Assembly: GCF_900091455.1 (NCBI RefSeq)
Contig: NZ_LT607412.1
Location: forward strand, 5,208,001 to 5,272,000
Direction: 5' to 3'
DNA from: Micromonospora coriariae
GTDB lineage: Bacteria; Actinomycetota; Actinomycetes; Mycobacteriales; Micromonosporaceae
Length of the DNA: 64,000 nt
Shown here in pieces: positions 5,336 through 63,945 of this stretch. The stretch's first letter is position 1. Each line of letters starts with the position of its first letter. A program made the position numbers and the translations under genes. Below the pieces are notes generated by a model. The model ran no database searches. It was given only the letters and a program-made list of their open reading frames with translations, and had not been told where the DNA came from.

Positions 5336-5827
5336 ATGTCCGCTGTCGTCGCCGTCATGCTGCTGTTCGCCGGGCTGTCCGAGGCCGTCGGGCGCCTCCT
5401 GCCGGTGGTGGCACGCCTGCGCGGCGTGTCGCACACCAGGGTGCTCGTGATGGTGCTGGGCGGCGCCGTGGTCGACGGCGCGGTCTTCGCGCTCTGGCCA
5501 CTGTCCGCGTGGACCCTCGCCGAGCTGGTGCTGCCCGCCGCATCGTCCGACCGGGCCGCGCTGGCCTGGACACCGGGCCTGGCCGCTCCGCTGCTGCTTG
5601 CCGCGGTCCTCGCGTTTCCGCTGCTCGGGCCGCTGCTGCACCTGCTGCTCATGGTGGGGGTGGGGACCGGCCTCGCCACTGCCCTCGCGACGGTGGCCGG
5701 GCTCGGTTGGTGGGAATCTGCCGGCTGCGTAGCCGTCGCGGGAGTCGGGCTCGGCGTCGCCGTCGAGGGCATCCGCCGCCTGGTCGTGCGGCTCAACACG
5801 ACAAGAGCCCCGGAGCGGTTTCCGTGA
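5336..5827 (+). CDS. Predicted multi-spanning membrane protein of unknown function
   Basis: A 163-residue protein with about five hydrophobic segments, for example VVAVMLLFAGLSEAVGRLL at the N-terminus and LLLAAVLAFPLLGPLLHLLL in the middle, and a short basic C-terminus. No family motif is recognised. The start is 2 nt after the glycosyltransferase stop and its own stop overlaps the GTG of the next gene, so it is the middle member of a translationally coupled trio. It may anchor or accompany the glycosyltransferase product, but that is only context. Confidence 0.65.
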   Translation: MSAVVAVMLLFAGLSEAVGRLLPVVARLRGVSHTRVLVMVLGGAVVDGAVFALWPLSAWTLAELVLPAASSDRAALAWTPGLAAPLLLAAVLAFPLLGPLLHLLLMVGVGTGLATALATVAGLGWWESAGCVAVAGVGLGVAVEGIRRLVVRLNTTRAPERFP

Positions 5828-6768: not shown

Positions 6769-6789
6769 CGGGGCGTACCGGCGGCCGGA

Positions 6790-7671: not shown

Positions 7672-7685
7672 ATCTCCAGGCTATG
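7669..7685. promoter_or_regulatory. LysR-type T-N11-A dyad overlapping the regulator start codon
   Basis: CATA-N9-TATG forms a perfect 4-bp dyad with the T-N11-A spacing expected for LysR boxes. It covers the lysR ATG and its TAGCCT -10 element, and faces the divergent MFS gene. Confidence 0.5.
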
Positions 7686-7743
7686 AGCTGCGCTGTCGAT
7701 CCGCCAACTACCAGCGCTTTCTGCCCCACCCGACGATTACCGC

Positions 7744-9063
7744 GTGAATGCCAGACGCGAGATCGCCGCCATGCTGACAACCACCTTCGTGAGCTGGATG
7801 GGTCAACGTACGACGGCCGTCGCGCTTCCGCTCGTCGCGCTCGCCGAGACCGGATCCGCCTGGTCCACCGGGCTGGTCGGTGGGGCGGTGGGCCTGCCCA
7901 TGCTCGCCTCGCCCTGGTGGGCCAGGCGCCTGCGTCAGCGACTGACCACGGGCAGAGCCCTCGCCTGGGTGCTCGCGGTCCAGGTGGTCGGTTTGCTCGT
8001 CGTTCCGACCGGTGCGGCCGTCGGAACGGTCAGTGCGGTTCACCTCGCCGCCGCCGGGCTGGTCACCGGATGTGCCACCGCTCTGAGTGGCCCGGGGCAA
8101 CGAGCGGTGCTCTCGGACATCGGCGACAGCCTCGGGTCCACCGTCGCGGCGAAGCTGTTGACCTGGCAGGATCTCCTGCACCGCAGCACGATGATCCTGG
8201 CGCCACCGGTGGCCGGGTGGGCGGTGGCCGTCGGCGGGCCGCTGCCCCTGCTCTGGGCGGAGGCCGCCGGCGTCGGTGCGGGGGCGCTCCTGCTGCTCAC
8301 CGTTCGCACCACCGCGGCGGTCGCCCCGCCAGCCCGTTCGGCCGGTGCTCCGGCCCTGCGGCACGTGCTGGCGCGGCACGGGGACATCCGTCGTGCCGTG
8401 ACGATGTCGGGAGTCGGCGGGCTCGTATGGTTCGCGTTCACCCTCGGTCTCGCGATCCTCGGCGCCGAGACCGGGCGGCCCGGGGTACTCATCGCGGCCG
8501 GCATGACCGGATACGGCCTGGGCTCGCTCACCGGTGCGCTGCTGGCGCCGGTGCTCGTTCCGCGAATGCCGGCGCTCGCGACGATGGCGATCGGATGGGC
8601 CGTCCTCGGCGTGACGTTCACGGCCCTGCCCGCCGTGGCGTCGTCTGTCGTCCTGCTGGCGTGCGTGGCCGCCGTCGGTGGCTTCTGCATGCCGCTCGGC
8701 ATCGGCGCCCTCAACCGGATCATCAGCACGCGTACCGATGGCGCCGACCGGCGAGCGGCCTTCGCGGCGGAGAGCCTCGTACACGACGGCGCGGTGTCCA
8801 TCGGTCTGCTCGCCGGGGGCGCGGTCATCGGCGTCGTCGGCGCGGGCCCGACTCTCGTCGCCGCCGGAGTCGCCCAGGTCGCCGTCGCGCTCGTCGCCGG
8901 CCCGTGGCCGAGAAGCTCACGGCTCGGACGACGGCATCGACGTGGTGCCGGCCGTCGAGTACGTTACCGGCGAGTCCGTCTGGCGACGGCGGACGACGGG
9001 GAGGCCGCATGGCCGGGAGACATCGTTCGTGGTGGGGCTGGGGGCACGTCGAGGACGCGGTGA
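7744..9063 (+). CDS. Major facilitator superfamily transporter
   Basis: A 439-residue protein with about twelve hydrophobic spans. The first span region includes TTFVSWMGQRTTAVALPLVA and there is a typical mid-molecule break around residue 205, where the second half begins. This layout fits MFS drug/metabolite exporters of the MDR type. It starts with GTG, has no strong ribosome site, and is divergent from the LysR gene that probably controls it. The last 55 residues (from about PWPRSSRLGRR) are Arg-rich and unlike an MFS terminus, and their coding sequence overlaps the next gene by 55 bp, so the natural C-terminus may have been altered by a frameshift or extension. Confidence 0.8.
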   Translation: MNARREIAAMLTTTFVSWMGQRTTAVALPLVALAETGSAWSTGLVGGAVGLPMLASPWWARRLRQRLTTGRALAWVLAVQVVGLLVVPTGAAVGTVSAVHLAAAGLVTGCATALSGPGQRAVLSDIGDSLGSTVAAKLLTWQDLLHRSTMILAPPVAGWAVAVGGPLPLLWAEAAGVGAGALLLLTVRTTAAVAPPARSAGAPALRHVLARHGDIRRAVTMSGVGGLVWFAFTLGLAILGAETGRPGVLIAAGMTGYGLGSLTGALLAPVLVPRMPALATMAIGWAVLGVTFTALPAVASSVVLLACVAAVGGFCMPLGIGALNRIISTRTDGADRRAAFAAESLVHDGAVSIGLLAGGAVIGVVGAGPTLVAAGVAQVAVALVAGPWPRSSRLGRRHRRGAGRRVRYRRVRLATADDGEAAWPGDIVRGGAGGTSRTR

Positions 9064-40126: not shown

Positions 40127-41479
40127 TCATGGCAGGACCGCGAGCAGGGCCCGGCGAGCCCCGACGTTCGCCACCTCGCTGTCCAGCGTGCGGTCGAGCA
40201 GTTCCGCGAGACGAGGTACGAGAAACGGTGCCACCGCGACCGTGCGGGGCTCGACGGGACCGGTGCTGATGCCGGGCGGCATCCGGCCCCAGTTCCACCA
40301 GACATGATCGCCGGCGGGGTTGGCCGGATCGGCGATGCCGGACACGACCCGCCGGAGCACGCGGTACTCGCCGGGCCGTAGATGGATCACGGCCGGGCGG
40401 TCGTCGGCCTGCCCGAACAGGCGCATGAGGTCCAGCTCGGTGACCGGCCCGGCGCGCAGCGCCGCCACCGAGCCGTCCACCGCGCCCTGGTTGGTGTGCT
40501 CGCTGGCGAGCACCAGCCCGGCGTCCGCCCCGGTGCTCTGGTGCAGCGCTCGAGCGAGGAGACCGGGAAGGTAGTGCGCCGCGCCGGTGCGGCCCAGCCA
40601 GTCGTGTCGGCTCTGCCCGAGGACGTTCGCGGCCGCGGCGTCGAGGGCGTCGACGGCCTGATCGCGTCGCTGCGGCTGCCGGGCGGGCACCGGATGGACG
40701 CCGCGGATCTGGGCGCGACCGGCGCCGGACGGCAGGTCGGCCACGAGGACGGACGCCGCGAAGATGTGCGGGTGCCCGAAGGGGACACCGCCGAGTGCGC
40801 CCACCCAGGAGCCGGGAGTGTGTCCGCCCAGGACGAGATCGACGCTGGTGATCCACGGCCTGGTGAGGGTGGCCAGCCGGTCGGTACGGGCGCCCGTGGC
40901 GGTGCTGCCGGGCTGCGGCCACCAGTCCACGCCGTCGTGCAGGAGGACGACCACCCAGCGTGCGTCGTTGGCGCGCAGGTCGGCGCTGAGGTGGGCGACC
41001 CGTTGTGGCCAGTCGTCGAGCGGCGGCGGGGCGCCGGCGAACCGGTGGGTGAACGGGTGGGTCAGCCCGATCACACCGACGGGACCACCGGGGGTGTCGA
41101 TGATCGTGGACGCTGGTAGCCCGACGTCGACGTTCGCGCACAGCACCGGATAGGGCAACAGCCCGGCAGCCGCCCGCAGCGCCGGTACGCCATCGTCGAA
41201 TTCGTGGTTGCCGGCGGCGGCCGCGTCGATGGGCAACCGCGCCAACTCATGCCATGGCCGGCGCCCCAGCAGTGGTTGTACCGGCCCGACGGCAAGATCG
41301 CCCGCGTCCAGCCAGAGGGTTGGTTGCGACTCACGCTCCCGCTCCAGCAGCTCCGCCACCCCGGCGCAGGTGCCGGCGGTGCCGTAACTCGTCCGCAGTG
41401 GCACGAAGGCCGCGCCCAGGTCGGTGGTGGCCAGGATCCGCACGGCGGTGCCGGGCCGCGCGTTCGGCAAGGTATCCAT
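40127..41479 (-). CDS. Bifunctional metallophosphatase/5'-nucleotidase-like protein
   Basis: A 450-residue enzyme with an N-terminal calcineurin-like metallophosphatase domain and a C-terminal 5'-nucleotidase domain. Metal motifs are seen in RILATTDLGAAFVPL (the usual TxDxHG is altered to TTDLGA), TLWLDAGDLAVG, AGNHEFDDG and VLGGHTPGSW; the C-domain has DAGLVLASEHTNQGAVDGSV. No signal peptide is present, so it is probably cytoplasmic, in contrast to most secreted homologues. ATG 41479 is preceded 7 nt upstream by TACATT, a leaderless layout; an overlapping GTG at 41482 is the alternative. Loss of the first His suggests altered metal binding. Confidence 0.8.
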   Translation of the reverse strand: MDTLPNARPGTAVRILATTDLGAAFVPLRTSYGTAGTCAGVAELLERERESQPTLWLDAGDLAVGPVQPLLGRRPWHELARLPIDAAAAGNHEFDDGVPALRAAAGLLPYPVLCANVDVGLPASTIIDTPGGPVGVIGLTHPFTHRFAGAPPPLDDWPQRVAHLSADLRANDARWVVVLLHDGVDWWPQPGSTATGARTDRLATLTRPWITSVDLVLGGHTPGSWVGALGGVPFGHPHIFAASVLVADLPSGAGRAQIRGVHPVPARQPQRRDQAVDALDAAAANVLGQSRHDWLGRTGAAHYLPGLLARALHQSTGADAGLVLASEHTNQGAVDGSVAALRAGPVTELDLMRLFGQADDRPAVIHLRPGEYRVLRRVVSGIADPANPAGDHVWWNWGRMPPGISTGPVEPRTVAVAPFLVPRLAELLDRTLDSEVANVGARRALLAVLP

Positions 41480-41643: not shown

Positions 41644-43296
41644 ATGCGCGTCCTTGGCATCAACGCGATCTTCCACGACCCCGCAGCCGCCCTGGTGGTG
41701 GACGGTCAGGTGGTGGCCGCCGCCGAAGAGGAGCGGTTCAGCCGCCGCAAGCACGGCAAGCGACCCGTTCCCTTCTCCGCGTGGGAGCTGCCCGAGTTGT
41801 CCGCTGGCTGGTGCCTGGCCAGCGCGGGGGTGGACGTCGACAGCCTCGACGCGGTCGCGTACTCCTTCGACCCCGGTCTCTGCGGCGACGTGGCCGAGCT
41901 GGGACTCGACGACCCGTGGGACTGGCTGCGCGTGGACTACGCGCGGCGAGCCCCGCAGTTCCTCGCCGCCGCCCTGCCCGGGCTCGACCCGGAGAAGGTG
42001 CGGTTCGTGCCGCACCACGTGGCACACGCCGCGTCGGCCGGGCTGGCTGCCCCGACGGCCGGCGACGACACCGCTGTGCTGGTGCTCGACGGGCGCGGCG
42101 AGGTGGCCAGCCACCTGGCCGGCGTCTACCGCGACGGACGGTTGTCGTCGCTGTACTCGCAGCGGCTCCCGCACTCGCTCGGCCTGCTCTACGAGGACCT
42201 GACCCGTCACCTCGGCTTCCTGCACTCCAGCGACGAGTACAAGGTGATGGCGCTGGCGTCCTACGGCCGGCCCCGGCATCTCCCCGCGCTCCGCGAGCTG
42301 GTCCGGGTCACCGACGACGGCGGTTTCCACGTCGAGCGGATCGACTGGGCCAGCCTCGCCAAGGCGCGGCCCGCCGACGGGGAGATGGGCGGCGACCACG
42401 CCGACCTGGCCTCCAGCGTGCAGGCCAGGTTGGAGGAGGTCATCCTCGACCTGTCCCGCTGGCTGTACGACGCCGGCGGCGGTCCCACCACCCTGGCGAT
42501 GGCCGGCGGCGTGGCGCTGAACTGCGTGGCCAACGCGCGCATCGCGGCGGAGGGGCCGTACCGAAAGGTCTGGGTGCAGCCGGCGGCCGGCGACGCGGGC
42601 ACCGCGCTGGGCGCGGCCCTGCACGTCGCCGGCGAGCTGGGCGACCGGTCGACGCCCATGGCCGGGGTGGACCTCGGCCGGGGCTGGTCGGACGAGCAGT
42701 TGGAGGCCGAGCTGCGCCGGGCGGCGCTGCCGTACACGCGGCCGGAGTCGATCGCCGCCGAGGCCGCCCGCGTGCTCGCCGACAACGGGATCGTCGCCTG
42801 GTATCAGGGGCGCAGCGAGTATGGTCCCCGGGCGCTGGGCCACCGGTCGTTGCTCGCCCACCCCGGTGACCCGGCGACCACCGCCCGGATGAACGACGTC
42901 AAGGGCCGCGAGCAGTTCCGGCCGATCGCCCCGATGGTCCACGCGGATCGCTTCGCGGACATCTTCGAGGGCACGTACCCCAGTCCCTACATGCTCTTCG
43001 TGCACCGGGTGAAGCCGGAGTGGCGTGACCGGATCCCGGCCGTCACCCACGTCGACGGCACCGCCCGGGTGCAGACCGTTCACCCGGAGACGGAGCCTCT
43101 GGTGGCCGAGCTGCTGACCGGGTTCGAGCGGCTCACCGGGCTGCCGGTGGTGGTGAACACCTCGTTGAACACCGCCGGCCGTCCCATGGTGGACACGCCC
43201 CGCGAGGCGATGGAGCTGTTCGGCTCCGCGCCGGTCGACCTGCTCGCCCTCGGCCCGTTCGCGGTGCACCGGCGGGCGCCGGGCGGCAACCCATGA
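41644..43296 (+). CDS. Carbamoyltransferase (NodU/CmcH/TobZ family)
   Basis: A 550-residue O-carbamoyltransferase. It has an N-terminal Kae1-like ASKHA domain (VLGINAIFHDPAAALVVDG, the metal-binding HHVAHAASA, MAGGVALNCVANARI) and a C-terminal YrdC-like adenylation/transfer domain (GRSEYGPRALGHRSLLAHPG, KGREQFRPIAPMV, VVNTSLNTAGRPMVD). This enzyme class makes carbamoyl-AMP from carbamoyl phosphate and ATP and transfers the carbamoyl group to a sugar or antibiotic hydroxyl. It leads the nine-gene heptose-glycan operon and its stop overlaps the next ATG, so its acceptor is likely a sugar made or attached by the operon. A TACGGA box 7 nt upstream suggests a leaderless start. Confidence 0.93.
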   Translation: MRVLGINAIFHDPAAALVVDGQVVAAAEEERFSRRKHGKRPVPFSAWELPELSAGWCLASAGVDVDSLDAVAYSFDPGLCGDVAELGLDDPWDWLRVDYARRAPQFLAAALPGLDPEKVRFVPHHVAHAASAGLAAPTAGDDTAVLVLDGRGEVASHLAGVYRDGRLSSLYSQRLPHSLGLLYEDLTRHLGFLHSSDEYKVMALASYGRPRHLPALRELVRVTDDGGFHVERIDWASLAKARPADGEMGGDHADLASSVQARLEEVILDLSRWLYDAGGGPTTLAMAGGVALNCVANARIAAEGPYRKVWVQPAAGDAGTALGAALHVAGELGDRSTPMAGVDLGRGWSDEQLEAELRRAALPYTRPESIAAEAARVLADNGIVAWYQGRSEYGPRALGHRSLLAHPGDPATTARMNDVKGREQFRPIAPMVHADRFADIFEGTYPSPYMLFVHRVKPEWRDRIPAVTHVDGTARVQTVHPETEPLVAELLTGFERLTGLPVVVNTSLNTAGRPMVDTPREAMELFGSAPVDLLALGPFAVHRRAPGGNP

Positions 43297-44363
43297 TCAG
43301 CATCGTCGTTCCGACGCTCGGCCGGCCCAGCCTCGCCATTCTGCTGGACGCCCTCGCCGGCCAGCTCGCCGAGCTGCCCGAGGTCGAGGTGCTGCTCGTC
43401 GACGACCGGCGCGACGACACCGGTGAGCTGGCGGTGCCGGGCGCCCTCGCGGCGTACACGAAGGTGCTGCGCGGCCTGGCCGCGGGCCCGGCGGCCGCCC
43501 GCAACCTGGGCTGGCGGGAGGCCCGGGGCGGGTGGGTGGTCTTCCTCGACGACGACGTGGTGCCGAGCCCGGACTGGGCCCGGCGGCTGCGGAACGACCT
43601 CCGTGTGGCCGACCGGGTGGGTGGCGTGCAGGGCGTGGTGGTGGTGCCGCCGCCGGCCGGGCGCCGCCCGACCGACTGGGAACGCGGCACCGCGGGCCTC
43701 GCCGAGGGGCGGTGGATCACCGCCGACATGGCCTACCGGCGGGCGGCGCTGGCCGCCGTCGGGGGCTTCGACGAGCGTTTTCCTCGCGCCTACCGCGAGG
43801 ACGCCGAGCTGGCGCACCGGGTGCGGCTCGCCGGCTGGGACCTGGTCCGGGGCCGGCGCCGGGTGACCCATCCGGTACGCCCGGAGAGTCGCTGGGTCAG
43901 CCTGCGCAACCAGCGGGGCAACGCCGACGACGCGCTGCTGCGCCGGCTGTACGGCCGCACCTGGCGCAGCCAGCTCGACCTGCCCGGCGGCCGGCGGTCG
44001 CGGCACGTCGCGGTCACCGCGGCCGGCGCTGTCGCGCTGGCCGGCCTGGCGCTGCGCGCCGTGCACCGTCACCACTGTCGGCGGCGCGTCCTCGGCGTGG
44101 TGGCCGGTGTGTCGGCGCTGGGCTGGGCGGCCGGCACCGCCGAGTTCGCCCGGGTCCGCGTCCTGCCGGGCCCCCGCACCCGGGACGAGGTTCTCACCAT
44201 GCTGGTGACCAGTGCGCTCATTCCGCCGCTCGCGGTCGCCCGCTGGGTGGGCGGCTGGTGGCGAATCCGGGCGGTGCCCGCCGGGGCGCTGGTCACGGCA
44301 GACCGGCCGGCGACGACGGATGGGCCCGCACCGCGCCGGGCCCGCACAACGGAGGCGGCATGA
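43293..44363 (+). CDS. Family 2 glycosyltransferase with membrane tail
   Basis: A 356-residue GT-A glycosyltransferase. The nucleotide-sugar fold begins SIVVPTLGRPSLAILLDALA, the DXD-type metal motif is in WVVFLDDDVVPSPDW, and the acceptor-side ED motif is in PRAYREDAELAHRVRLAG. After residue 230 there are about three hydrophobic segments (AVTAAGAVALAGLALRAV, VLGVVAGVSALGWAAG, MLVTSALIPPLAVARWVGGW), suggesting it works at the membrane on a lipid-linked or surface glycan. It overlaps both neighbours by 4 bp. Donor sugar is not predictable. Confidence 0.9.
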   Translation: MISIVVPTLGRPSLAILLDALAGQLAELPEVEVLLVDDRRDDTGELAVPGALAAYTKVLRGLAAGPAAARNLGWREARGGWVVFLDDDVVPSPDWARRLRNDLRVADRVGGVQGVVVVPPPAGRRPTDWERGTAGLAEGRWITADMAYRRAALAAVGGFDERFPRAYREDAELAHRVRLAGWDLVRGRRRVTHPVRPESRWVSLRNQRGNADDALLRRLYGRTWRSQLDLPGGRRSRHVAVTAAGAVALAGLALRAVHRHHCRRRVLGVVAGVSALGWAAGTAEFARVRVLPGPRTRDEVLTMLVTSALIPPLAVARWVGGWWRIRAVPAGALVTADRPATTDGPAPRRARTTEAA

Positions 44364-45991
44364 CGCCGCCCGGGCCCGCGCTCTACGACACCGTGCTGCT
44401 CGACCGGGACGGCACGCTCGTGGAGGACGTGCCCTACAACGGTGACCCGGAGAAGGTCCGACCGGTGCCTGGCGCCCGACCGGCCCTCGACCGGCTGCGC
44501 GCCGCCGGGCTCCGCCTCGCCGTGGTCACCAATCAGTCCGGACTGGCCCGCGGCCTGTTCACCGAGCGGCAGATGCTCGCGGTGCACGCGCGGATCGAGG
44601 AACTGCTCGGCCCCTTCGACGACTGGGTGATCTGCCCGCACGACGAGACCGACGGCTGCGCCTGCCGCAAGCCGGCCCCCGGCCTGGTGTACGCCGCCGC
44701 CCGGTCGCTCGGCACCACTGCCCGGCGCTGTGTCCTGGTCGGCGACATCGGCCGGGACATGGCCGCGGCGCTCGCCGCCGGCGCCAGCGGCATCCTGGTG
44801 CCCACCCCTGTCACCCGCCCCGAGGAGATCGCCGCGGCGCCCGCGGTGGCCCCCGACCTTCCCGCGGCGGTGGACGAGATCCTGCGCCGCACGCGCGCCG
44901 TCCGTCCGGCCGCACCGCGTACCGGGCGGACCGGCACCGTCCTGGTGGTACGGAGCGACTCCGTCGGGGATGTGCTGGTCACCGGTCCGGGGATCCGAGC
45001 CGTCGCGGCCGGCGCGCAGCGGGTGGTGCTGCTCTGCGGGCCGCGCGGCCGGGCCGCCGCCGACCTGCTGCCCGGCGTCGACGACGTGATCGAGTGGCCG
45101 TTGCCCTGGATAGACCGCTCGCCCGGGCCGGTCGACCCGGCGGACCTGCGCGCGCTCACCGGCCGGCTCGCCCAGGTCGGTGCCGACGAGGCGGTCGTCT
45201 TCACCTCGTACCACCAGTCGCCGCTGCCCATCGCGCTGCTGTTGCGGATGGCCGGCGTCCCCCGAATCAGCGCGATCAGCGACGACTACCCGGGCTCCCT
45301 GCTGGACGTCCGACACCAGGTGCCGGTCGGTGTTCCCGAGCCGGAACGCGCGCTCTCCCTCGCCGCCGCGGCCGGGTTCGCGCTCGCACCGGGCGACGAG
45401 CCGGCACTGCGGCTGCGAGACGACGTGCTCGGGGCCGCGCAGGTGGCCCTCTCCGACGCCACGGCAGCCTCCGAGGCCCCGGCGACCGCGCTTCCGACCG
45501 GTGACTTCGTGGTGGTCCACCCGGGCTCGTCGGCGCCCGCGCGAGCCTGCCCGGCCAACCGCTGCGCCGACATCGTCGCCGCCCTGGTCGCCGGCGGTCA
45601 CCGTGTCGTCGTCACCGGCGGACCCGACGAGCGGGAGCTCACCGCCCGGGTCAGCGCGGCCGGCGGCACCGACCTGGGCGGGGCGGTCGACCTGGCCGGG
45701 CTCGCCCGGATCCTGTCCGGCGCTCGCTGCGTGGTGGTCGGCAACACCGGGCCGGCCCACCTCGCCGCAGCGGTCGGCGTGCCGGTGGTCAGCCTGTTCG
45801 CCCCCACCGTCCCGTTCGGGCAGTGGGGGCCGTACCGGGTGCCGACGGTCCGGATCGGCGACGCCGGGGCGGCCTGCCGCGACACCCGGGCGGCTGTCTG
45901 CCCGGTCGCCGGTCATCCCTGCCTGTCCGACGTCGACCCGGCCGAGGTGGTCGCCGCCGTACGGGTCCTCGCCCATGGTCCGCCGCACTGA
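44360..45991 (+). CDS. Fusion of GmhB-type heptose bisphosphate phosphatase and GT9 heptosyltransferase-like domain
   Basis: A 543-residue two-domain protein. Residues 1-180 are a HAD-IIIA phosphatase with DTVLLDRDGTLVED, the long PYNGDPEKVRPV loop, VTNQSGLARG and the zinc loop CPHDETDGCACRKPAPG, the set that defines D-glycero-D-manno-heptose-1,7-bisphosphate phosphatase (GmhB). Residues from about 195 form a GT9 ADP-heptose-LPS heptosyltransferase-like domain (VLVVRSDSVGDVLVTGPGIR, VVHPGSSAPARACP, GNTGPAHLAAAVGVPVVSLF). GmhB is normally a separate enzyme, so the fusion ties heptose activation to its transfer. It lies in the same operon as gmhA- and hldE-like genes. Confidence 0.93.
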   Translation: MTPPGPALYDTVLLDRDGTLVEDVPYNGDPEKVRPVPGARPALDRLRAAGLRLAVVTNQSGLARGLFTERQMLAVHARIEELLGPFDDWVICPHDETDGCACRKPAPGLVYAAARSLGTTARRCVLVGDIGRDMAAALAAGASGILVPTPVTRPEEIAAAPAVAPDLPAAVDEILRRTRAVRPAAPRTGRTGTVLVVRSDSVGDVLVTGPGIRAVAAGAQRVVLLCGPRGRAAADLLPGVDDVIEWPLPWIDRSPGPVDPADLRALTGRLAQVGADEAVVFTSYHQSPLPIALLLRMAGVPRISAISDDYPGSLLDVRHQVPVGVPEPERALSLAAAAGFALAPGDEPALRLRDDVLGAAQVALSDATAASEAPATALPTGDFVVVHPGSSAPARACPANRCADIVAALVAGGHRVVVTGGPDERELTARVSAAGGTDLGGAVDLAGLARILSGARCVVVGNTGPAHLAAAVGVPVVSLFAPTVPFGQWGPYRVPTVRIGDAGAACRDTRAAVCPVAGHPCLSDVDPAEVVAAVRVLAHGPPH

Positions 45992-46031
45992 ACTGCCAGC
46001 TCAGCCCCAACAGCCGCCCTCGAGGAGAGAG

Positions 46032-47015
46032 ATGAACGTACTGCTGTGGCACGTGCACGGCTCCTGGACGACGTCGTTCGTGCACGGAAGACACCGGTAC
46101 CTGGTGCCGGTCACCGCCGACCGCGGCCCGTACGGGCTGGGCCGGGCGCGGACGTACGACTGGCCGGCGCACGCTGTCGAGGTGGCCCCCGAGGAGCTGC
46201 GGGGGACCGAGGTCGACCTGGTCGTGCTGCAACGACCCGAGGAACTGGAGCTGGCCGAACGGTGGCTGGGCCGGCGCCCCGGCCGTGACCTGCCGGCGGT
46301 CTACGTCGAGCACAACACCCCCAGGGGCGACGTGCCGAACACCCGGCACCCGATGGCCGACCGCGACGACCTGCTGCTGACCCACGTCACGCACTTCAAC
46401 GAGCTGTTCTGGGACAGCGGCGGCACCCGCACCGCCGTCGTCGAGCACGGCATCGTGCCACCGAGGGTGGAGTGGACCGGTGACCTGGACCGGCTCGCCG
46501 TGGTGACCAACGAGCCGGTACGCCGCTGGCGGGTCACCGGCACCGACCTGATGCCGCGGTTCGCCGCAGTGGCTCCGCTGGACGTCTACGGAATGGGCGT
46601 GGCGGGGCTGCCGGAGGCGCTGGCCATCGCCGGTGACCCGGGTGGCCCGGTGACCGGCCACGAGGACCTGCCGCAGGACCGCATGCATGCCGAGGTGGCG
46701 CGGCGACGGGCGTACCTGCACCTGTGCCGGTGGACGTCGCTCGGGCTGAGCCTCATCGAGGCGATGGCCATCGGCATGCCGGTGATCGCCCTGGCGACCA
46801 CCGAGGCCGTCGATGCCGTGCCGCCGGACGCGGGGGTGCTGTCCACCAGGGTCGACACCCTGGTCGAGGCGGCCCGCTGGCTCGCCGGGGACCGCGAGGC
46901 GGCTCTCCGGCTGGGAGCGCGGGCGCGCGAGGTGACGAAGCAACGGTTCGGGCTCGACCGGTTCCTCGCTGACTGGGACCGGCTGCTGGAGGAGGAGACA
47001 TGCGGGTCGCGATGA
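46032..47015 (+). CDS. GT-B glycosyltransferase (family 4-like)
   Basis: A 327-residue glycosyltransferase. It begins NVLLWHVHGSWTTSFVHGRH and the C-terminal half has the nucleotide-sugar site YLHLCRWTSLGLSLIEAMAI followed by GMPVIALATTEAVDAVP, the E-x7-E-type pattern of GT4 enzymes. VYVEHNTPRGDVPNTRHPM lies in the acceptor domain. GAGGAGAGAG precedes the ATG, and the 3' end overlaps the next glycosyltransferase by 16 bp. Members of this kind are found near carbamoyltransferase/heptose clusters in actinomycetes, to my recollection. Donor unknown. Confidence 0.85.
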   Translation: MNVLLWHVHGSWTTSFVHGRHRYLVPVTADRGPYGLGRARTYDWPAHAVEVAPEELRGTEVDLVVLQRPEELELAERWLGRRPGRDLPAVYVEHNTPRGDVPNTRHPMADRDDLLLTHVTHFNELFWDSGGTRTAVVEHGIVPPRVEWTGDLDRLAVVTNEPVRRWRVTGTDLMPRFAAVAPLDVYGMGVAGLPEALAIAGDPGGPVTGHEDLPQDRMHAEVARRRAYLHLCRWTSLGLSLIEAMAIGMPVIALATTEAVDAVPPDAGVLSTRVDTLVEAARWLAGDREAALRLGARAREVTKQRFGLDRFLADWDRLLEEETCGSR

Positions 47016-48217
47016 TTTCGGAGCACGCCAGTCCATTGGCCGTCCTTGGCGAGGAGGACGCCGGCGGCCAGAACACCCACGTCGCGGAGCTGGCGGCCGC
47101 GCTCGTCGATGAGGGCCACGACGTGCGGGTCTACACCCGCCGTGACTCGGCCACCCTGCCCGAGGCGGTGCCCACGCCCTACGGCTACCAGGTGTGGCAC
47201 GTTCCGGCCGGCCCACCCCGGCGGGTGCCCAAGGACGAACTGCTGCCGTACCTGGGCGAGTTCGGCAGCTGGCTGGCGGACACCTGGCGGCGCGGCGACT
47301 GGACTCCGGAGGTGGCCCACGCGCACTTCTGGATGAGTGGGCTGGCCACAGTGCACGCCGGCCGCCGCATCGGGGTGCCGACCGTGCTCACCTACCACGC
47401 GTTGGGCACGGTCAAGCGGCGTCACCAGGGCACAATGGACACCAGCCCGCCGGGGCGGATCGGTTACGAGCGGGCGCTCGGTCGGGCAGCCGACCGGATC
47501 ATCGTGCAGTGCGCCGACGAGGTCCGGGAACTGGTGCGGATCGGCGTACCCCGGTCCCGGATGACGTTGGTCCCCTCCGGTGTCAACCAGCAGGTGTTCC
47601 GTCCGGACGGGCCGGCCGCGCCGCGTGGCCCGAGCGGGCCACGCATCCTCACCGTCGGCCGGATGGTGGAGCGCAAGGGTTTCCTGGACGTGGTCCGGGC
47701 GCTGCCCGCCGTGCCGCACGCCGAGTGTGTGGTGGTCGGCGGCCCGCCGGCGGACCTGCTCGCGGCCGACACCTTCGCCCGTCGGCTGTCCGCGGCGGCC
47801 GAGTCGTGCGGGGTCGGTGACCGGGTCAAGCTGGTCGGCGGTGTGCCCCGCGAGGAGATGGCCGCCTGGTACCGCTCGGCGGACGTGCTGGTCGCCGCTC
47901 CCTGGTACGAGCCGTTCGGGCTCACCCCGCTGGAAGGGATGGCGTGCGGGGTGCCGGTGATCGGCACCAACGTCGGCGGGATCGCCGACACCGTCGTGGA
48001 CGGGCTCACCGGCGACCTGGTCCCGCCGCGCGATCCCCGCGCGTTGAGCACCGCGATCCGGCGGCTCCTCGCCGACAAGGTCCGCCGCTTCGCGTACGCC
48101 ACGGCGGCGCTGGACCGGATCCGCTGCCTGTACTCGTGGAAGCGTTGCGCCGAACAGCTTGGCGGCGTCTACGCGGCGGTGGCCACGCTCACCCGTCCCG
48201 CGCAGGCGGTGGTGTGA
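47000..48217 (+). CDS. Family 4 glycosyltransferase (sucrose-phosphate-synthase/MshA-like fold)
   Basis: A 405-residue GT-B retaining glycosyltransferase. The acceptor domain starts VAMISEHASPLAVLGEEDAG with GQNTHVAELAAALVDEGHDV, and the donor domain has ILTVGRMVERKGFLDVVRAL and WYEPFGLTPLEGMACGVPVI, the EPFGxxxxE motif of GT4. The GGQN loop resembles sucrose-phosphate synthase and MshA. It overlaps the preceding gene by 16 bp and shares one base with the next (TGATG), so it is strictly coexpressed. Confidence 0.92.
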   Translation: MRVAMISEHASPLAVLGEEDAGGQNTHVAELAAALVDEGHDVRVYTRRDSATLPEAVPTPYGYQVWHVPAGPPRRVPKDELLPYLGEFGSWLADTWRRGDWTPEVAHAHFWMSGLATVHAGRRIGVPTVLTYHALGTVKRRHQGTMDTSPPGRIGYERALGRAADRIIVQCADEVRELVRIGVPRSRMTLVPSGVNQQVFRPDGPAAPRGPSGPRILTVGRMVERKGFLDVVRALPAVPHAECVVVGGPPADLLAADTFARRLSAAAESCGVGDRVKLVGGVPREEMAAWYRSADVLVAAPWYEPFGLTPLEGMACGVPVIGTNVGGIADTVVDGLTGDLVPPRDPRALSTAIRRLLADKVRRFAYATAALDRIRCLYSWKRCAEQLGGVYAAVATLTRPAQAVV

Positions 48218-48987
48218 TGACCCGCCACGACACCCTCGACGCGCACCTCGCCGGACTGGCCGCCGCGCTGCTGCCCTACCGCAGGGAGGCCGAGCGACTG
48301 TCCGTCTGGGGCAACGAGCTGGCCTGGACCCTGGCCGGGGGTGGACGGATCCTGGTGGCCGGTAACGGCGGCAGCGCCGCCGAGGCGCAGCATCTCACAG
48401 CTGAACTGGTCGGGAAGCTCCGCGACGACCGGGAGCCGCTGTCCGCCATCGCCCTGCACGCGGAGACCTCCGCGCTGACCGCGATCGGGAACGACTACGG
48501 CTACGACGAGGTCTTCGCCCGCCAGGTTCGCGCCCACGGCCGCCCCGACGACATCCTGCTGCTCATGTCCAGCAGCGGCAGCAGCAGGAATCTGCTCACC
48601 GCCGCCCGCGCCGGCCGCCGGACCGGACTGCGCTGCTGGGCCTTCACCGGCCCGGCCCCCAATCCCCTCGCCGACCTGTGCGATGACGTGCTCGCCGTGC
48701 CGTCCCCGGACAGTCAGGTGGTGCAGGAGCTGCACCTGGTCTCCACGCATCTGCTCTGCGAGTTCGTGGACCAGGCTCTGCCGCTGGTCCGACAGCTCCG
48801 TACCGTCCCCGTGCCGCCGCCCTGGGCCGACCCGAGCACGCGGCGGACCGTCCCGTTCCAGGGCGGGTCGCCGGCCACCGCGACGGTGGGTCACCGGACG
48901 AACGGGCATTCGCACAACGGGCATTCGCACAGCGGAAACCCGCACAACGGACGCGGATTCACCGGCACCGGTTGGGCGGCGTCGTGA
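48217..48987 (+). CDS. gmhA: Sedoheptulose-7-phosphate isomerase GmhA-like (SIS domain) with His/Asn-rich tail
   Basis: A 256-residue SIS-domain protein. The sugar-phosphate site reads ILVAGNGGSAAEAQHLTAEL followed by VGKL, close to the GmhA consensus, and the second phosphate loop is LLMSSSGSSRNLLTAA. GmhA turns sedoheptulose-7-phosphate into D-glycero-D-manno-heptose-7-phosphate; metal-binding residues are plausible in QELHLVSTHLLCEF. After residue 200 there is an extension not found in ordinary GmhA, ending in NGHSHNGHSHSGNPHNG, a short tandem repeat that could bind metal. Start overlaps the preceding stop and the stop overlaps the hldE-like GTG. Confidence 0.9.
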   Translation: MTRHDTLDAHLAGLAAALLPYRREAERLSVWGNELAWTLAGGGRILVAGNGGSAAEAQHLTAELVGKLRDDREPLSAIALHAETSALTAIGNDYGYDEVFARQVRAHGRPDDILLLMSSSGSSRNLLTAARAGRRTGLRCWAFTGPAPNPLADLCDDVLAVPSPDSQVVQELHLVSTHLLCEFVDQALPLVRQLRTVPVPPPWADPSTRRTVPFQGGSPATATVGHRTNGHSHNGHSHSGNPHNGRGFTGTGWAAS

Positions 48988-50396
48988 CCGGGCAGCTCGT
49001 CGTGGTCGGCGACACCCTGCTGGACCGGGACGTCACCGGGACTGTCAGCCGGATCTGTCCGGACGCCCCCGCGCCGGTACTCGATGAGGGCTCGGCGGTG
49101 GACCGGCCCGGTGGCGCCGGGTTGGCCGCCCAGCTCGCGGCCGCGCACGGCACCGAGGTCGCCCTGGTCACCGGGCTGGCCGGGGACGCCGGCGGGGCGC
49201 GTCTGACCGAACTGCTGAGCGACGCCGGGGTCAAGGTGTATCCGCTGCGCCTGCCCGGCGCGACCAGCGAGAAGATCCGGCTGAGGGCCGGCGGGCAGAC
49301 CCTGCTCCGCCTGGACCGGGGAGGTGAACCGCAGCGGCCGGACGAACCGCCGGAGGCGGTGCTGGAGGTGCTCGCCCGAGCCCGAGCCATCCTGGTCAGC
49401 GACTACGGCCGCGGGCTGGTACGGCAACCCGCGTTGCGCGCGGCGCTCGCCGAGGCATCCGCGCCGATCGTGTGGGACCCGCACCCGCGCGGTCCGGCCG
49501 CCGTGCCGGGGGCCCGGCTGACCACGCCGAACCTGGCCGAGCTGCGGCACCTCACCGGCGACGCGGGCCAGGGTTCCGCGCTCTCCACGGCCATCCGGGC
49601 CGGGCACGAACTGCGCCGCCGCTGGCGGGCCGGCGGGGTCGCGGTGACGATGGGCCCGGACGGCGCGCTGCTCTGCCACTCCAGCGGCACTCCGCTGATC
49701 GTTCCGCCCCCGTCCGCGCTCGATCGTGTCGAGGACACCTGTGGCGCCGGAGACCGGTTCGCCGCCACCGCCGCCCTGGCCCTCGGCGACGGCGCGACGG
49801 CCTCCGAGGCGGTCGGCATGGCGGTCGCCGCCGCGTCGGAGTACGTGGCGGCGGGCGGGGCGACCGGTCTGCACCGCCCGCCGCGGCGCGAACCGAGGCC
49901 GACCGCGGCGCGTTCGGCCGAGCAGGTGCTGGCGAAGGTACGCGCCGACGGCGGCACAGTGGTCGCCACCGGAGGCTGCTTCGACCTGCTGCACGCCGGG
50001 CACGTCGCCACCCTCCAGGCGGCCCGTCGACTCGGCGACTGCCTGGTGGTGTGCCTCAACTCCGACCGCAGCGTACGAGGGCTCAAGGGACCGGAGCGTC
50101 CGGTCGACTCCGAGCAGGACCGCGCCCGCCTCCTGGCCGCGCTGGACTGCGTCGACGCGGTGGTGGTCTTCGACGAGCCGACCCCGCACCGGGTGCTGGG
50201 CCGGCTGCGGCCCGACATCTGGGTCAAGGGCGGTGACTACGCCGGGGACGGTCGTCCCGAGCTGCCCGAGGCGGAACTGATCCACCGCTGGGGCGGGCAG
50301 GTGGTCACCGTCCCGTACCTGACCGGCCGGTCGACCACCGCCACCATCACCGCCGCGCGCCAGCGCGGCCTCCACCTCGTCAGGGGAGCGGTATGA
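48984..50396 (+). CDS. hldE: Bifunctional heptose kinase/adenylyltransferase HldE-like
   Basis: A 470-residue two-domain enzyme. The N-terminal ribokinase-fold domain shows VVVGDTLLDRDVTGTVSRI, RPGGAGLAAQLAAAHG and the catalytic loop EDTCGAGDRFAATAALAL; it should phosphorylate heptose-7-phosphate at C1. The C-terminal nucleotidyltransferase domain has ATGGCFDLLHAGHVATLQAA with the HxGH motif, NSDRSVRGLKGPERPV and DIWVKGGDYAGD, and should make ADP-heptose after GmhB action. GTG 48984 overlaps the GmhA-like TGA; a TTG twelve bases earlier is less likely. All three activities needed for ADP-D-glycero-D-manno-heptose are thus in one operon; no HldD epimerase is seen. Confidence 0.95.
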   Translation: MTGQLVVVGDTLLDRDVTGTVSRICPDAPAPVLDEGSAVDRPGGAGLAAQLAAAHGTEVALVTGLAGDAGGARLTELLSDAGVKVYPLRLPGATSEKIRLRAGGQTLLRLDRGGEPQRPDEPPEAVLEVLARARAILVSDYGRGLVRQPALRAALAEASAPIVWDPHPRGPAAVPGARLTTPNLAELRHLTGDAGQGSALSTAIRAGHELRRRWRAGGVAVTMGPDGALLCHSSGTPLIVPPPSALDRVEDTCGAGDRFAATAALALGDGATASEAVGMAVAAASEYVAAGGATGLHRPPRREPRPTAARSAEQVLAKVRADGGTVVATGGCFDLLHAGHVATLQAARRLGDCLVVCLNSDRSVRGLKGPERPVDSEQDRARLLAALDCVDAVVVFDEPTPHRVLGRLRPDIWVKGGDYAGDGRPELPEAELIHRWGGQVVTVPYLTGRSTTATITAARQRGLHLVRGAV

Positions 50397-51088
50397 GCAG
50401 GGACATGAACGGCAGGAGCATCCTCGTCACCGGCGGTTCGAGCGGACTCGGCGCCGCCGTGGTGGCCGCGGTGGCAAAGGCCGGCGGACGGCCGTACGTG
50501 CTGGATCAGCGGCCCCCGGCGGTCGAGGTGCCCTGGGCCGGGTGTGACCTGGCCGACGCCCGGGCCGCCGAGGCCGCCACCCGACGGCTCGCCGAGCAGG
50601 CCGGTGGCCTGGACGGGCTGGTGACCGCCGCCGGTATGGACGTGCCGGGGCGGCTGACCGACGTGCCGGGCGAGACCTGGGACCGGATCGTGGCGATCAA
50701 CCTGCTCGGCACCGCCGCGGTCGTCCGGGCAGCGGTGCCGTACCTGGAACGCTCGCACGGAACGGTGGTCACCGTGGCGTCCACACTGGGTGTCAAGGCG
50801 GTCAGCGACGCGACCGCGTACTGCGCCGCGAAATTCGGCGTGGTCGGCTTCACCCGGGCTCTCGCGGCCGAGCTGGCCGGCGCGGTGGGCGTCACGCTCC
50901 TCATCCCGGGTGGCATGCGGACCGCGTTCTTCGACGATCGGGACGAGAAGTACAAGCCCGGGCCGGACGCTGTCCTCAACGACCCGGCGGACACCGCCGA
51001 GGCGGTTCTGTTCGCTCTCGGGCAACCGCCCGGCTGCGCGGTACGCGAGCTGGTGGTCTGCGCGGAGCAGGAGTCGTCGTACCCGTGA
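50393..51088 (+). CDS. Short-chain dehydrogenase/reductase
   Basis: A 231-residue classical SDR. The cofactor site is SILVTGGSSGLGAAVVAAVA, followed by DGLVTAAGMDVPGR (NNAG replaced by TAAG), the Ser in TVASTLGVKAVSDA, and YCAAK with catalytic Tyr and Lys. It ends without an extra domain. It is not an HldD epimerase, which is an extended SDR, so the operon's heptose would stay in the D-glycero form unless another gene acts. It overlaps both neighbours by 4 bp and may modify the sugar or aglycone. Confidence 0.9.
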   Translation: MSRDMNGRSILVTGGSSGLGAAVVAAVAKAGGRPYVLDQRPPAVEVPWAGCDLADARAAEAATRRLAEQAGGLDGLVTAAGMDVPGRLTDVPGETWDRIVAINLLGTAAVVRAAVPYLERSHGTVVTVASTLGVKAVSDATAYCAAKFGVVGFTRALAAELAGAVGVTLLIPGGMRTAFFDDRDEKYKPGPDAVLNDPADTAEAVLFALGQPPGCAVRELVVCAEQESSYP

Positions 51089-52077
51089 TCCTCGTGCTCC
51101 GGGCGCTCGGCGTCGGTGACCTCGCCACCGGCGTGCCGGCCATCCGCGCCCTACGGGCCGCGTACCCCGACAAGGAGCTGGCGCTTGTCGCGCCACGGTG
51201 GCTGAGCCCGCTGGTCGACCTGGTCGGCGGTGTGGACCGGCTCATCGAGGCGGACGGGCTGGGCCACCTGAGGTGGTCCGGCCCGCCGCCGGAGCTGGCG
51301 GTCAATCTGCACGGCCGGGGGCCGCAGTCACACCACATGCTCGCCAGGGTCGGGCCGCGTCGGCTGTTCGCCTTCGCCAACGCCGAGGCAGGGCACGGGG
51401 ACGGCCCACAGTGGCGGGCCGACGAGCACGAGGTGGACCGGTGGTGCCGGATGCTCGCCTGGTACGGCATTCCCGCCGACCGCGGCGATCTGGCGCTGAT
51501 CCGCCCCGGGGCGGGCGGACTGCCGACCGGGGTCAGCGTCGTGCACCCCGGCGCGAAGGCGGCGCAGCGGCGCTGGCCACCGGTGCGCTTCGCGGCGGTC
51601 GCTCGGACGCTGGCCGACCAGGGGCACCGGGTGGTGGTCACCGGCAACCCGGGGGAGCGGGGCATCGCCGCGGAGGTCGCGCGCCGGGCCGGGCTTCCCG
51701 ACGACGCCGTGCTGGCCGGGAGGACGAATCTCGGCGAGCTGGCCACCCTGGTCGCCCACGCTCGCCTGGTGCTCAGCGGTGACACCGGCGTCGGTCACCT
51801 GGCGACCGCGTACGCCACCCCGTCGGTGCTGCTGTTCGGCCCGGTGCCACCCGCGCACTGGGGCCCACCGCCGGGCCGGCCCGGTCACGAGGCGCTCTGG
51901 GTCGGACCGCGTCCGCCGGGCGACGGCGTGGCGGTGCACCCGGCGCTCGCCGAGCTGGACGTGCCGGCCGTGCTGACCGCCATCGACCGGGTGACCCGGG
52001 CTCGCGCTCCTGCTGCCCTGCCGGTCCAGCCGGCGCCCTCAGCCGGTCGGTGGGCTGAGGCTGCGCGTTCGCCCTAG
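51085..52077 (+). CDS. Family 9 glycosyltransferase (heptosyltransferase-like)
   Basis: A 330-residue GT9 enzyme. It begins VLRALGVGDLATGVPAIRAL, the GDxxxxxPxLRAL pattern of ADP-heptose:LPS heptosyltransferases, with VVHPGAKAAQRRWPPVRFAA and the donor-site LSGDTGVGHLATAYATPSVL (the D-T-G-x-x-H motif). It is a stand-alone second copy of the domain fused to GmhB upstream. GTG start overlaps the SDR stop. The last 25 residues are Pro/Ala-rich. It closes the operon, with a convergent GAF-ANTAR gene 8 bp downstream. Confidence 0.92.
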   Translation: MILVLRALGVGDLATGVPAIRALRAAYPDKELALVAPRWLSPLVDLVGGVDRLIEADGLGHLRWSGPPPELAVNLHGRGPQSHHMLARVGPRRLFAFANAEAGHGDGPQWRADEHEVDRWCRMLAWYGIPADRGDLALIRPGAGGLPTGVSVVHPGAKAAQRRWPPVRFAAVARTLADQGHRVVVTGNPGERGIAAEVARRAGLPDDAVLAGRTNLGELATLVAHARLVLSGDTGVGHLATAYATPSVLLFGPVPPAHWGPPPGRPGHEALWVGPRPPGDGVAVHPALAELDVPAVLTAIDRVTRARAPAALPVQPAPSAGRWAEAARSP

Positions 52078-52084
52078 GGCCTCG

Positions 52085-52795
52085 TCAGGATCGCCGCCTG
52101 CGGGTGGTCTGCTCCACCAGTGCCTCGGCGACATCACGCAGCTTCTGGTTCGAGTCCTGGGAGATCTTGGCGAGCGCCGCGAACGCCTCGTCGGCGCTGC
52201 ACCGCCGACGACCCATGATGATCCCCTTGGCCTGTTCGATGACGGCGCGGCTGAGCATCGCGTTGCGCATCTGCTCGGCCAGGGCGGCAGCGCCGTCGTA
52301 GCGCTGCGCGTTGGCCACGGCCACCGCCGCGTGGCCGGCGAAGGTCTGGGCCAACTGGACGACCTCGGTGAAGGCCCGCGGGGCCCGGCCATAGATGTTC
52401 AGTGCGCCGACCACCGCCTCCTGAATGGGCAGAGCCACCGACAGGGAACTCGCCGCCCCGGTGGCGCGTGCACTCGCGGCCCAAGCCGGCCAACGGCGCT
52501 CCGTGGCCATGTCCTCGACCATGATGACGGTGCCGCTGCTGGCGGCGTCCAGGCAGGGGCCGCGGCCCTGCTCGTACTGCAACTCGTCCAGTCGCAACGC
52601 CAGGTCGCCGGTGTACGCCGCGGTGTACGACCTGGAGCCCTGAATCAGGGTCACCGACACGTCCTCAGAGCCGGGCACCGTCTGTTTGGCGATCTCCGTG
52701 ATCCTGACCAGGACGGCGTTCAGGCTCGCTTCGCCGTACCGGATCGTACCCAGCTCAATCAGGGCCTGGGTGAGATCGAGAGGTGCCTGTGGCAT
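52085..52795 (-). CDS. GAF-ANTAR antitermination regulator
   Basis: A 236-residue protein. A GAF sensor domain occupies roughly residues 20-165 (GSEDVSVTLIQGSRSYTAAY, YEQGRGPCLDAASSGTVIMV, ALPIQEAVVGALNIYGRAP) and an ANTAR RNA-binding domain the C-terminus (SRAVIEQAKGIIMGRRRCSA, FAALAKISQDSNQKLRDVAE). ANTAR domains bind paired RNA hairpins to prevent termination. It is one of three close paralogues in this window. The frame ends 8 bp from the heptose operon on the opposite strand. Ligand and RNA target are unknown. Confidence 0.93.
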   Translation of the reverse strand: MPQAPLDLTQALIELGTIRYGEASLNAVLVRITEIAKQTVPGSEDVSVTLIQGSRSYTAAYTGDLALRLDELQYEQGRGPCLDAASSGTVIMVEDMATERRWPAWAASARATGAASSLSVALPIQEAVVGALNIYGRAPRAFTEVVQLAQTFAGHAAVAVANAQRYDGAAALAEQMRNAMLSRAVIEQAKGIIMGRRRCSADEAFAALAKISQDSNQKLRDVAEALVEQTTRRRRS

Positions 52796-54121: not shown

Positions 54122-54835
54122 ATGACGCGCCCACCCCTGGACCCCACTGACGCCTTCGCCGAACTCGGCCGCCTGAAGCTCGACGAGAACAGTCTCGACG
54201 ATGTCCTGCAGCGCGTCGCCGAGCTGGCCAAACGTGCTCTGCCCATGCCGGTGGAGGTGTCGGTCACGCTGGTGCGCGGCGGGACCGGGCACACGGCCGC
54301 ATTCACCGACGAACTGGCCCGTGACCTCGACGAGCGGCAGTACGGACACGGCCGTGGCCCGTGTCTGGAGGCGGCTGCCAGCGGCGACGTCCTGTCCGTT
54401 CCGGACCTGACCGCCGACGAACGCTGGCCGGAATGGGCCGAACGTGGCCGCCAAGCCGGAGTGGGCAGTTCGGTGTCGATCGGTCTGCCGATCCAGGAGG
54501 CGGTCGTCGGAGCACTAAACGTCTACGCGGGCACGCCGCACGCCTTCGACGACGACTCGGTGTCGATCCTCAAGACGTTCGGCGCGTACGCCGCGGTCGC
54601 CCTGGCCAACGCTCAGCTCTACGACAGCACCGCCACCCTGGCCCGGCAGATGCAGGAGGCGATGGCGAGCCGAGCGGTCATCGAGCAGGCCAAGGGCATC
54701 ATCATGGCCGAGCGACGCTGCAGTCCGGCGGAGGCGTTCACGATCCTGTCCAAGGTGTCGCAGGACTCCAACCGCAAGCTCCGCGACATGGCCCAGGCCC
54801 TGGTCGATCGGACGACGCGGACGTCCGGCGTCTGA
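54122..54835 (+). CDS. GAF-ANTAR antitermination regulator
   Basis: A 237-residue GAF-ANTAR protein: PVEVSVTLVRGGTGHTAAFT, YGHGRGPCLEAAASGDVLSV and IGLPIQEAVVGALNVYAGTP in the GAF part, and SRAVIEQAKGIIMAERRCSP with FTILSKVSQDSNRKLRDMAQ in the ANTAR part. It is closely related to the proteins encoded at 52.1 and 63.2 kb, sharing the opening DPTDAFAELGRLKLDENSLD pattern with the latter. The three probably arose by duplication and may answer different signals through the GAF domain. Confidence 0.93.
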   Translation: MTRPPLDPTDAFAELGRLKLDENSLDDVLQRVAELAKRALPMPVEVSVTLVRGGTGHTAAFTDELARDLDERQYGHGRGPCLEAAASGDVLSVPDLTADERWPEWAERGRQAGVGSSVSIGLPIQEAVVGALNVYAGTPHAFDDDSVSILKTFGAYAAVALANAQLYDSTATLARQMQEAMASRAVIEQAKGIIMAERRCSPAEAFTILSKVSQDSNRKLRDMAQALVDRTTRTSGV

Positions 54836-63231: not shown

Positions 63232-63945
63232 ATGACGCCGCCGACCCTGGATCCCGCCGACGCGTTGGCCGAGCTGGGCCGGATCAGACTCGACGAGACC
63301 AGCCTCGATGACATGCTGCGCCGGATCGCCGAGCTGGCGAACCGAACAGTTCCCGGGACCAGGGACGTGTCGGTCACCCTGGTCCGGGGTCAGGCCAACT
63401 GGACCGCCGCGTTCAGCGGCGACGTGGCCTGCGATCTGGATGAGTGGCAGTACCGGCAGCACCGGGGGCCGTGCCTGGATGCCTCTGCCAGCGGTGACAG
63501 CATCTCGGTGCCGGACATGGCAGCCGAGCAGCGGTGGCCGGAATGGGCCGCCAGGGCTCGCGCTGCCGGGGTCGAAAGCTCGCTGTCGATCGGGCTGCCG
63601 ATCCAGGGATCGGTGGTCGGTGCGCTCAACGTCTACGGCGCCGCGGCGAACGCCTTCGATCCGGCGGCCATCACCGTCGCCGAGGGCTTCGCCGCCTACG
63701 CGGCGGTGGCGCTGGCCAACGCGCATTTGTACGACAGCGCCGCAACGCTGGCGGATCAGATGCAGGAGGCGATGCGGGGGCGGGCGGTGATCGAGCAGGC
63801 CAAGGGGATCATCATCGGGGAGCGGCGTTGCTCGCCGGAGGAGGCGTTCGCGCTGCTGTCGAAGATTTCGCAGGACACCAACCGCAAGGTTCGTGATGTC
63901 GCTGAGGCCCTTGTCGATCAAGCGGTTCGGAGAACGCGCGCGTGA
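63232..63945 (+). CDS. GAF-ANTAR antitermination regulator
   Basis: A 237-residue GAF-ANTAR protein with DVSVTLVRGQANWTAAFSGD, HRGPCLDASASGDSISVPDM and IGLPIQGSVVGALNVYGAAA in the sensor part and RAVIEQAKGIIIGERRCSPE with FALLSKISQDTNRKVRDVAE in the ANTAR part. It is the third paralogue in the window. Its TGA overlaps a GTG that opens a further frame, so it appears to be the first gene of an operon continuing beyond the window. Confidence 0.93.
   Translation: MTPPTLDPADALAELGRIRLDETSLDDMLRRIAELANRTVPGTRDVSVTLVRGQANWTAAFSGDVACDLDEWQYRQHRGPCLDASASGDSISVPDMAAEQRWPEWAARARAAGVESSLSIGLPIQGSVVGALNVYGAAANAFDPAAITVAEGFAAYAAVALANAHLYDSAATLADQMQEAMRGRAVIEQAKGIIIGERRCSPEEAFALLSKISQDTNRKVRDVAEALVDQAVRRTRA

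Follow-up and report, generated by a model that had tools for sequence, protein, structure and literature searches.

A probable cell-envelope glycan operon with heptose genes in Micromonospora coriariae: a cwg-like second copy, reduced to one glycosyltransferase gene in relatives

Genes of the operon

The window studied here is a 64,000-nucleotide stretch of the Micromonospora coriariae genome (assembly GCF_900091455.1, contig NZ_LT607412.1, positions 5,208,001 to 5,272,000), in which nine plus-strand genes occupy 41644–52077. Domain searches and open reading frame coordinates confirm the gene number, the domains and the overlaps that a first-pass annotation of this DNA had described. All nine genes are open and their motifs are intact. 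We regard the operon as genuine and conserved; its product is most likely a glycan of the envelope, and operons of this kind are already known from predictions.

The first gene encodes a NodU/TobZ-type carbamoyltransferase (CarbT; 41644–43296) with PF02543 and PF16861 domains, whose relatives include TobZ and 7xb6. It is followed by a GT2-type glycosyltransferase (GT) gene (43293–44363; PF00535), for which hydropathy indicates weakly hydrophobic C-terminal stretches. We rejected GT2 as a clear membrane protein because these stretches are weak and vary between relatives. Next come a GmhB-like phosphatase fused to a GT9 domain (44360–45991; domain matches, PF01075 at 67.6 bits) and two GT4 genes. 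GT4b (46032–47015) is a divergent member recognised by a weak Pfam match and its predicted structure; GT4a (47000–48217) resembles MshA and sucrose-phosphate synthase in domain matches and predicted structure. Domain matches identify the sixth gene as a GmhA sedoheptulose-7-phosphate isomerase with a C-terminal extension (48217–48987). HldE, a heptose-7-phosphate kinase and heptose-1-phosphate nucleotidyltransferase (48984–50396), scores 185.6 bits with TIGR02199 (cut-off 181.5). The last two genes are a classical short-chain dehydrogenase/reductase (SDR; 50393–51088; PF00106) with conserved Gly-rich, Ser and YxxxK motifs, and a second, stand-alone GT9 (51085–52077; PF01075 at 90.3 bits). Both GT9 domains exceed the PF01075 gathering score of 22 bits.

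Distribution and conservation

Clusters of the same type are widespread, so the operon is not an isolated oddity. The gene set, mostly in the same order, occurs in Actinoplanes, Dactylosporangium, Streptomyces and more distant metagenome-assembled genomes. We scanned the best 80 of 535 HldE relatives and called genes in 79 loci (L078 was dropped); with the window and a related copy in the same genome, termed copy A below, these make 81 rows, and some loci stop at contig borders. HldE is present in all 81 rows, GT4a in 78, SDR in 77, GT4b in 76, GmhB-GT9 in 74, GmhA in 73, the stand-alone GT9 in 71, CarbT in 36 and GT2 in 35. In alignments of 36 to 81 rows, HldE, GmhA, GmhB, SDR and CarbT show no or almost no variation at their key catalytic motif residues. 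The same holds for the HxxxH, GRSEYGPRALG and REQFRP motifs of CarbT that mark TobZ and NodU, in 34–35 aligned rows.

An independent sample gave a similar gene content. GT4b matches at E ≤ 1e-20 were found in 24 of 198 Actinomycetota genomes, M. coriariae included. Twenty regions from the other 23 genomes contain HldE (20), GT4a (20), GmhB (19), SDR (18, six of them weak matches at 33–39% identity), GT9 (18), GmhA (17), CarbT (16) and GT2 (16); one of these regions is just 4.4 kb long. The relatives' gene content thus bears out the co-inheritance of the set across actinomycetes. Among 296 genomes of the class, 65 have an HldE match at E ≤ 1e-60, counted in any neighbourhood. A separate homologue search that scored 8000 candidates showed just close relatives in its best 120 rows and was left out of these distributions.

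Heptose donor pathway

The gene set for a nucleoside diphosphate (NDP)-heptose is complete. Isomerase, kinase, phosphatase and nucleotidyltransferase are all present with their catalytic motifs, as seen in domains and alignments, and the assignment of GmhA, HldE and GmhB to this pathway stands. No heptose 6-epimerase scores above the curated cut-off anywhere in the genome (best hit 126.7 against 274.6 bits), and therefore the D-glycero-D-manno form is expected. The enzymes and motifs are homologous to those of the Gram-negative inner-core pathway for lipopolysaccharide (LPS; GmhA, HldE, GmhB, WaaC/WaaF), from which the Micromonospora system differs in lacking an epimerase over the cut-off and in GT9 proteins that diverge at the Lys and Asp positions discussed below. 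Note that Gram-positive bacteria have no LPS.

The first-pass annotation had named the product ADP-D-glycero-beta-D-manno-heptose. The heptose pathway holds and the D,D form is expected, but "ADP" is too specific, given the arginine of the so-called STTR5 motif in HldE. The terminal motif of the window HldE reads YLTGRSTT, and its Arg is kept in 77 of 81 rows. In excerpts of PMC11573728 this Arg is tied to the use of CTP and UTP; according to a part of PMC11461863, the motif is not strictly required for it. The nucleotidyltransferases described in the former source have Phe or Leu at the first position, whereas the window HldE has Tyr there and shares the Arg at the fifth position and the STT. 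The strict form (F/L)XXGRSTT is found in only 2 of 81 rows, and the window protein deviates from it. Because HldE carries the Arg linked to CDP- and UDP-heptose synthesis, its donor product may differ from ADP-heptose; CDP- or UDP-heptose is possible.

The genome encodes a third HldE-like protein of 601 aa with an insert of about 107 residues in the kinase part (G000:C1:2232134-2233939; L150:8135-9937). Downstream of its gene lies a glycosyltransferase-like gene, and a GT9 adjoins on the other strand; together they form a separate heptose locus.

Likeness to the Streptomyces cwg operon

In Streptomyces cellulosae (L076) twelve genes stand in a row: NAD-epimerase, CarbT, GT2, GmhB, GT9, GT4b, GT4a, GmhA, HldE, GT9, GT2 and GT2. 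Another Streptomyces (L079) carries a comparable set. GmhA is the eighth and HldE the ninth gene in S. cellulosae, in positional agreement with the cwg operon of Streptomyces coelicolor (SCO6179-6190). The excerpted gene list of PMC5839063 gives SCO6180-6183 as transferase, transferase, dehydratase and transferase, and SCO6185-6188 as transferase, phosphoheptose isomerase (SCO6186), bifunctional synthase/transferase (SCO6187) and transferase. The "dehydratase" would correspond to GmhB, judging from HisB-like similarity. With S. cellulosae as a bridge, gene order and these listed functions match the window: transferases at the places of CarbT, GT2, GT9 and GT4a, then the phosphoheptose isomerase, the HldE-like protein and a further transferase. 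The window operon differs from cwg in that GmhB is fused to GT9, an SDR gene lies between HldE and GT9, and the set is nine genes long, without the starting epimerase, the two GT2 genes at the end and a recognisable sigma-E promoter. According to the part of PMC6767563 available, cwg is a vancomycin-induced sigma-E target, and its product as a wall glycan is a prediction even in S. coelicolor.

A short version of the cluster is found on a Streptomyces fungicidicus plasmid (L180:6237-13425), with an epimerase, CarbT, two glycosyltransferases, an SIS protein and rfaE2.

Two copies in Micromonospora

The chromosome of M. coriariae holds a second set, copy A (G000:C1:539834-547503), which contains GmhB-GT9, GT4b, GT4a, GmhA, HldE, SDR and GT9 in the same order as the window. 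Copy A is 62–80% identical to the window operon (copy B) and has neither CarbT nor GT2. A GmhB-GT9 query, which does not separate the two copies, matches all 101 Micromonospora genomes at E ≤ 0.001, in some of them as fragments. GT4a at 69–73% identity to that of the window, the copy-A range, is found in 99 of 101 genomes, and the other two are very fragmented assemblies. Such near-universal presence in the genus suits an envelope function. A CarbT of the window type (86% identity or more over 320 or more residues) is present in 28 of 101 genomes and is full length in 27 of them. GT2 of the window type (74% identity or more, a few partial) occurs in 27 of the 101 genomes, all of them among these 28, and no other GT2 match exceeds 42% identity.

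These distributions bear on the proposal that the operon is a biosynthetic cluster whose secreted natural product, a glycoside or a nucleoside, contains heptose. The sporadic CarbT is in line with it. On the Streptomyces plasmid pFRL5 (L181:3198-16125), genes for a radical SAM protein and a P450 accompany those for rfaE2, GT9 and a carbamoyltransferase; this set looks like a heptose natural-product cluster, and the gene combination does occur in metabolite-like surroundings. Septacidin uses heptose (excerpts of PMC11573728), and the window itself holds a P450 (19140–20381) and an EryCIII-like glycosyltransferase (4110–5333), though both lie more than 20 kb from the operon. Yet the scan of 27 of the 50 flanking genes revealed no aglycone-making domain. 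Moreover, the paralogous copy is nearly universal in the genus, gene order is conserved over great distance, and five GT domains would fit a glycan better. With the septacidin and hygromycin B clusters the window shares heptose derived from sedoheptulose-7-phosphate, as far as the excerpted literature describes it, and is set apart from them by its many glycosyltransferases, its genus-wide paralogue and its flanks. We consider a natural-product cluster unlikely. The view that a surface glycan is more likely than a secreted glycoside, voiced before these comparisons, gains support from the cwg-like synteny and from the paralogue across the genus.

In the FastTree, the Micromonospora copies A and B each make up a clade of their own; two early copies of the genus (L055, L069) fall outside A+B and blur the timing of the duplication. 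Actinoplanes has the nine-gene set at a site syntenic with copy A. We inspected singly the CarbT genomes with a copy-A-like GT4a. In G089 (L182, G089:C407:64000-83500) all nine genes are at the copy-A site and group with copy A, making this the only copy A with CarbT and GT2 met among the Micromonospora loci inspected; either the two genes persisted here while most other copies A lost them, or G089 regained them. In G035 (L183, G035:C14:142000-161000) nine genes are at the copy-B site with HldE of copy-B type, and GT4a groups with copy A, which looks like gene conversion between the copies. In G069 copy-A and copy-B pieces merely lie on different contigs. A simple typing, in which copy A lacks CarbT and copy B has its own GT4a, is broken by G089 and G035.

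The usual copy-B site is empty in M. coriariae (L177:7222-9447), and copy B sits in the window instead, at a place shared with G078. The window copy has therefore either moved or been regained.

Reduction of copy B to GT4a

At the usual copy-B site 18 of 101 genomes hold a full-length GT4a alone (L094-L097 and L151-L164, at about 5000-8500 of each). The flanking genes are the same, with a few missing here and there; two extra GT4a copies without those flanks (L165, L166) were left out of the 18. Remnants of the lost genes are present at eight of the 18 solo loci: N-terminal CarbT remnants of 36–56 aa in four and C-terminal GT4b remnants in six, two loci having both. All 18 solo genes fall inside the copy-B clade of the GT4a tree. 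In this tree of 63 rows, 16 of them copy B, the starred branches force at least three state changes and the whole-tree minimum by a quick method is five, counts that by themselves give no direction. Loss rather than gain is indicated by the remnants, and also because eight genes are unlikely to have been regained in their order.

The ratio of nonsynonymous to synonymous substitution rates is 0.19–0.40 for solo GT4a (seven pairs), 0.16–0.22 for copy B (three pairs) and 0.11–0.21 for copy A (two pairs). Solo GT4a is under purifying selection that is somewhat relaxed but still constraining. The most straightforward explanation is that GT4a of copy B has a function that makes it worth retaining alongside copy A.

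What this might be can be stated only tentatively. An ancient carbamoylated heptose wall glycan could be common to Actinobacteria, made from CDP- or UDP-heptose by operons of the cwg type, and the Micromonospora duplicate could have evolved a GT4a of new specificity that uses the heptose units of copy A. If this is true, it would account for the repeated loss of the other eight genes and the retention of GT4a alone. The copy-A-type GT4a at the copy-B site of G035 speaks against strictly separate specificities, and for this reason we slightly lowered the already low odds of this proposal.

The persistence of GT4a in these 18 genomes also lends weight to the idea that the genes heptosylate a protein or a small cytosolic thiol- or inositol-like acceptor, with GT4a acting like MshA. 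The solved folds nearest to the GT4a model (pLDDT 92.3) are sucrose-phosphate synthase 6kih (31% identity) and MshA 3c4q (29%), a similarity of predicted structure that would agree with such an acceptor. Protein heptosylation is known in bacteria (excerpts of PMC11573728). On the other hand, GT4a scores 216.8 bits with the MshA profile, below the cut-off of 462.5, and two GT9 domains, a second GT4, a GT2 and a CarbT would exceed the needs of a single-sugar modification. We judge this idea to have little chance of being right.

Finally, copy B could be a redundant relic of copy A that is being lost and has no separate product. This would agree with the repeated deletion in the genus and its CarbT and GT4b remnants, and G035 suggests that A and B enzymes can be interchangeable. 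It does not agree with nine window genes that are all open and motif-intact, with the new site of copy B in M. coriariae and G078, or with CarbT and GT2, which have no counterpart in copy A of the same genome. Such a relic is very improbable.

Interpretation

Taken with the evidence above, the genes are probably a cwg-like cell-envelope glycan operon, the second copy in the genome. Gene content, intact motifs, conservation, paralogy and the reduction to GT4a in relatives were observed. In the following scheme we infer all substrates and products, as well as the acceptor and the location at the surface. GmhA, HldE and the GmhB domain would convert sedoheptulose-7-phosphate to NDP-D-glycero-D-manno-heptose (ADP, possibly also CDP or UDP), and the two GT9 domains would transfer the heptose. 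GT2, GT4a and GT4b would attach other residues to an acceptor bound to the envelope, or prime them there. CarbT would carbamoylate a sugar hydroxyl and SDR would alter the oxidation state of one residue.

Several results weigh against the envelope-glycan explanation. Lys and Asp residues of WaaC matter for catalysis. The fused GT9 has Asn462 at the position of this Asp in 72 of 72 rows and Arg at that of the Lys in 73 of 73, and because of these invariant residues it may not be a heptosyltransferase. The stand-alone GT9 has Asp233 in 71 of 71 rows and Arg or Lys at the Lys place; since the residues at these positions are unlike, the two GT9 proteins probably differ in donor or acceptor. GT4b is predicted to adopt the GT4/GT-B fold over the whole chain (pLDDT 94.4), but Thr235, invariant in 46 of 46 rows, stands where the first Glu of the GT4 motif EX7E belongs. 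No flippase, polymerase, ligase or LCP-type gene was found in the operon or in the 27 flanking genes scanned out of 50. A simple consensus scan for the sigma-E box AAC-N15-18-[CG]GTC gave no match within 300 bp upstream of 41644. Over all loci such boxes occur in 8 of 69 upstream regions against 6.8 expected, and at CarbT-first loci in 7 of 33 where 3.4 would be expected; three of these seven matches are CarbT coding sequence itself. The S. coelicolor operon was likened by position and annotation, not by sequence. For these last two reasons, the missing box and the kind of comparison, we call the operon cwg-like and not a proven cwg member. Outside Micromonosporaceae the family is patchy, going by GT4b in 24 of 198 genomes, and the literature matches listed include no report of heptose in Micromonospora walls.

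We found no paper on this cluster in Micromonospora among the matches listed. The fresh points, which those matches likewise do not report, are the duplication, the difference in modules between copies and the fact that GT4a was repeatedly kept by itself. The S. coelicolor cwg glycan is a prediction in the available parts of PMC5839063 and PMC6767563. Micromonospora offers natural variants: copy A without the CarbT of copy B, A and B together, and A with GT4a alone. If the wall glycans of these variants were compared, the steps due to carbamoylation, GT2 and GT4a could be assigned. Excerpts of PMC11573728 describe the roles of CDP- and UDP-heptose as unknown and suggest the conserved neighbours of heptose genes as a place to look; the window cluster is a neighbourhood of this kind.

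Neighbouring genes and base composition

A divergent metallophosphoesterase gene at 40127–41479 was considered as a cluster partner and rejected because no relative flanks the loci compared for gene order; it recurs at the same place in G078. Base composition is uninformative about a horizontal origin: GC content is 75.1% in the cluster against 70.4% in the rest of the window, yet copy A has 76.0%. The window encodes three similar proteins in a span of 12 kb (52085–52795, 54122–54835 and 63232–63945). The first two are GAF-ANTAR proteins by Pfam, and the third was judged by its N-terminus only.

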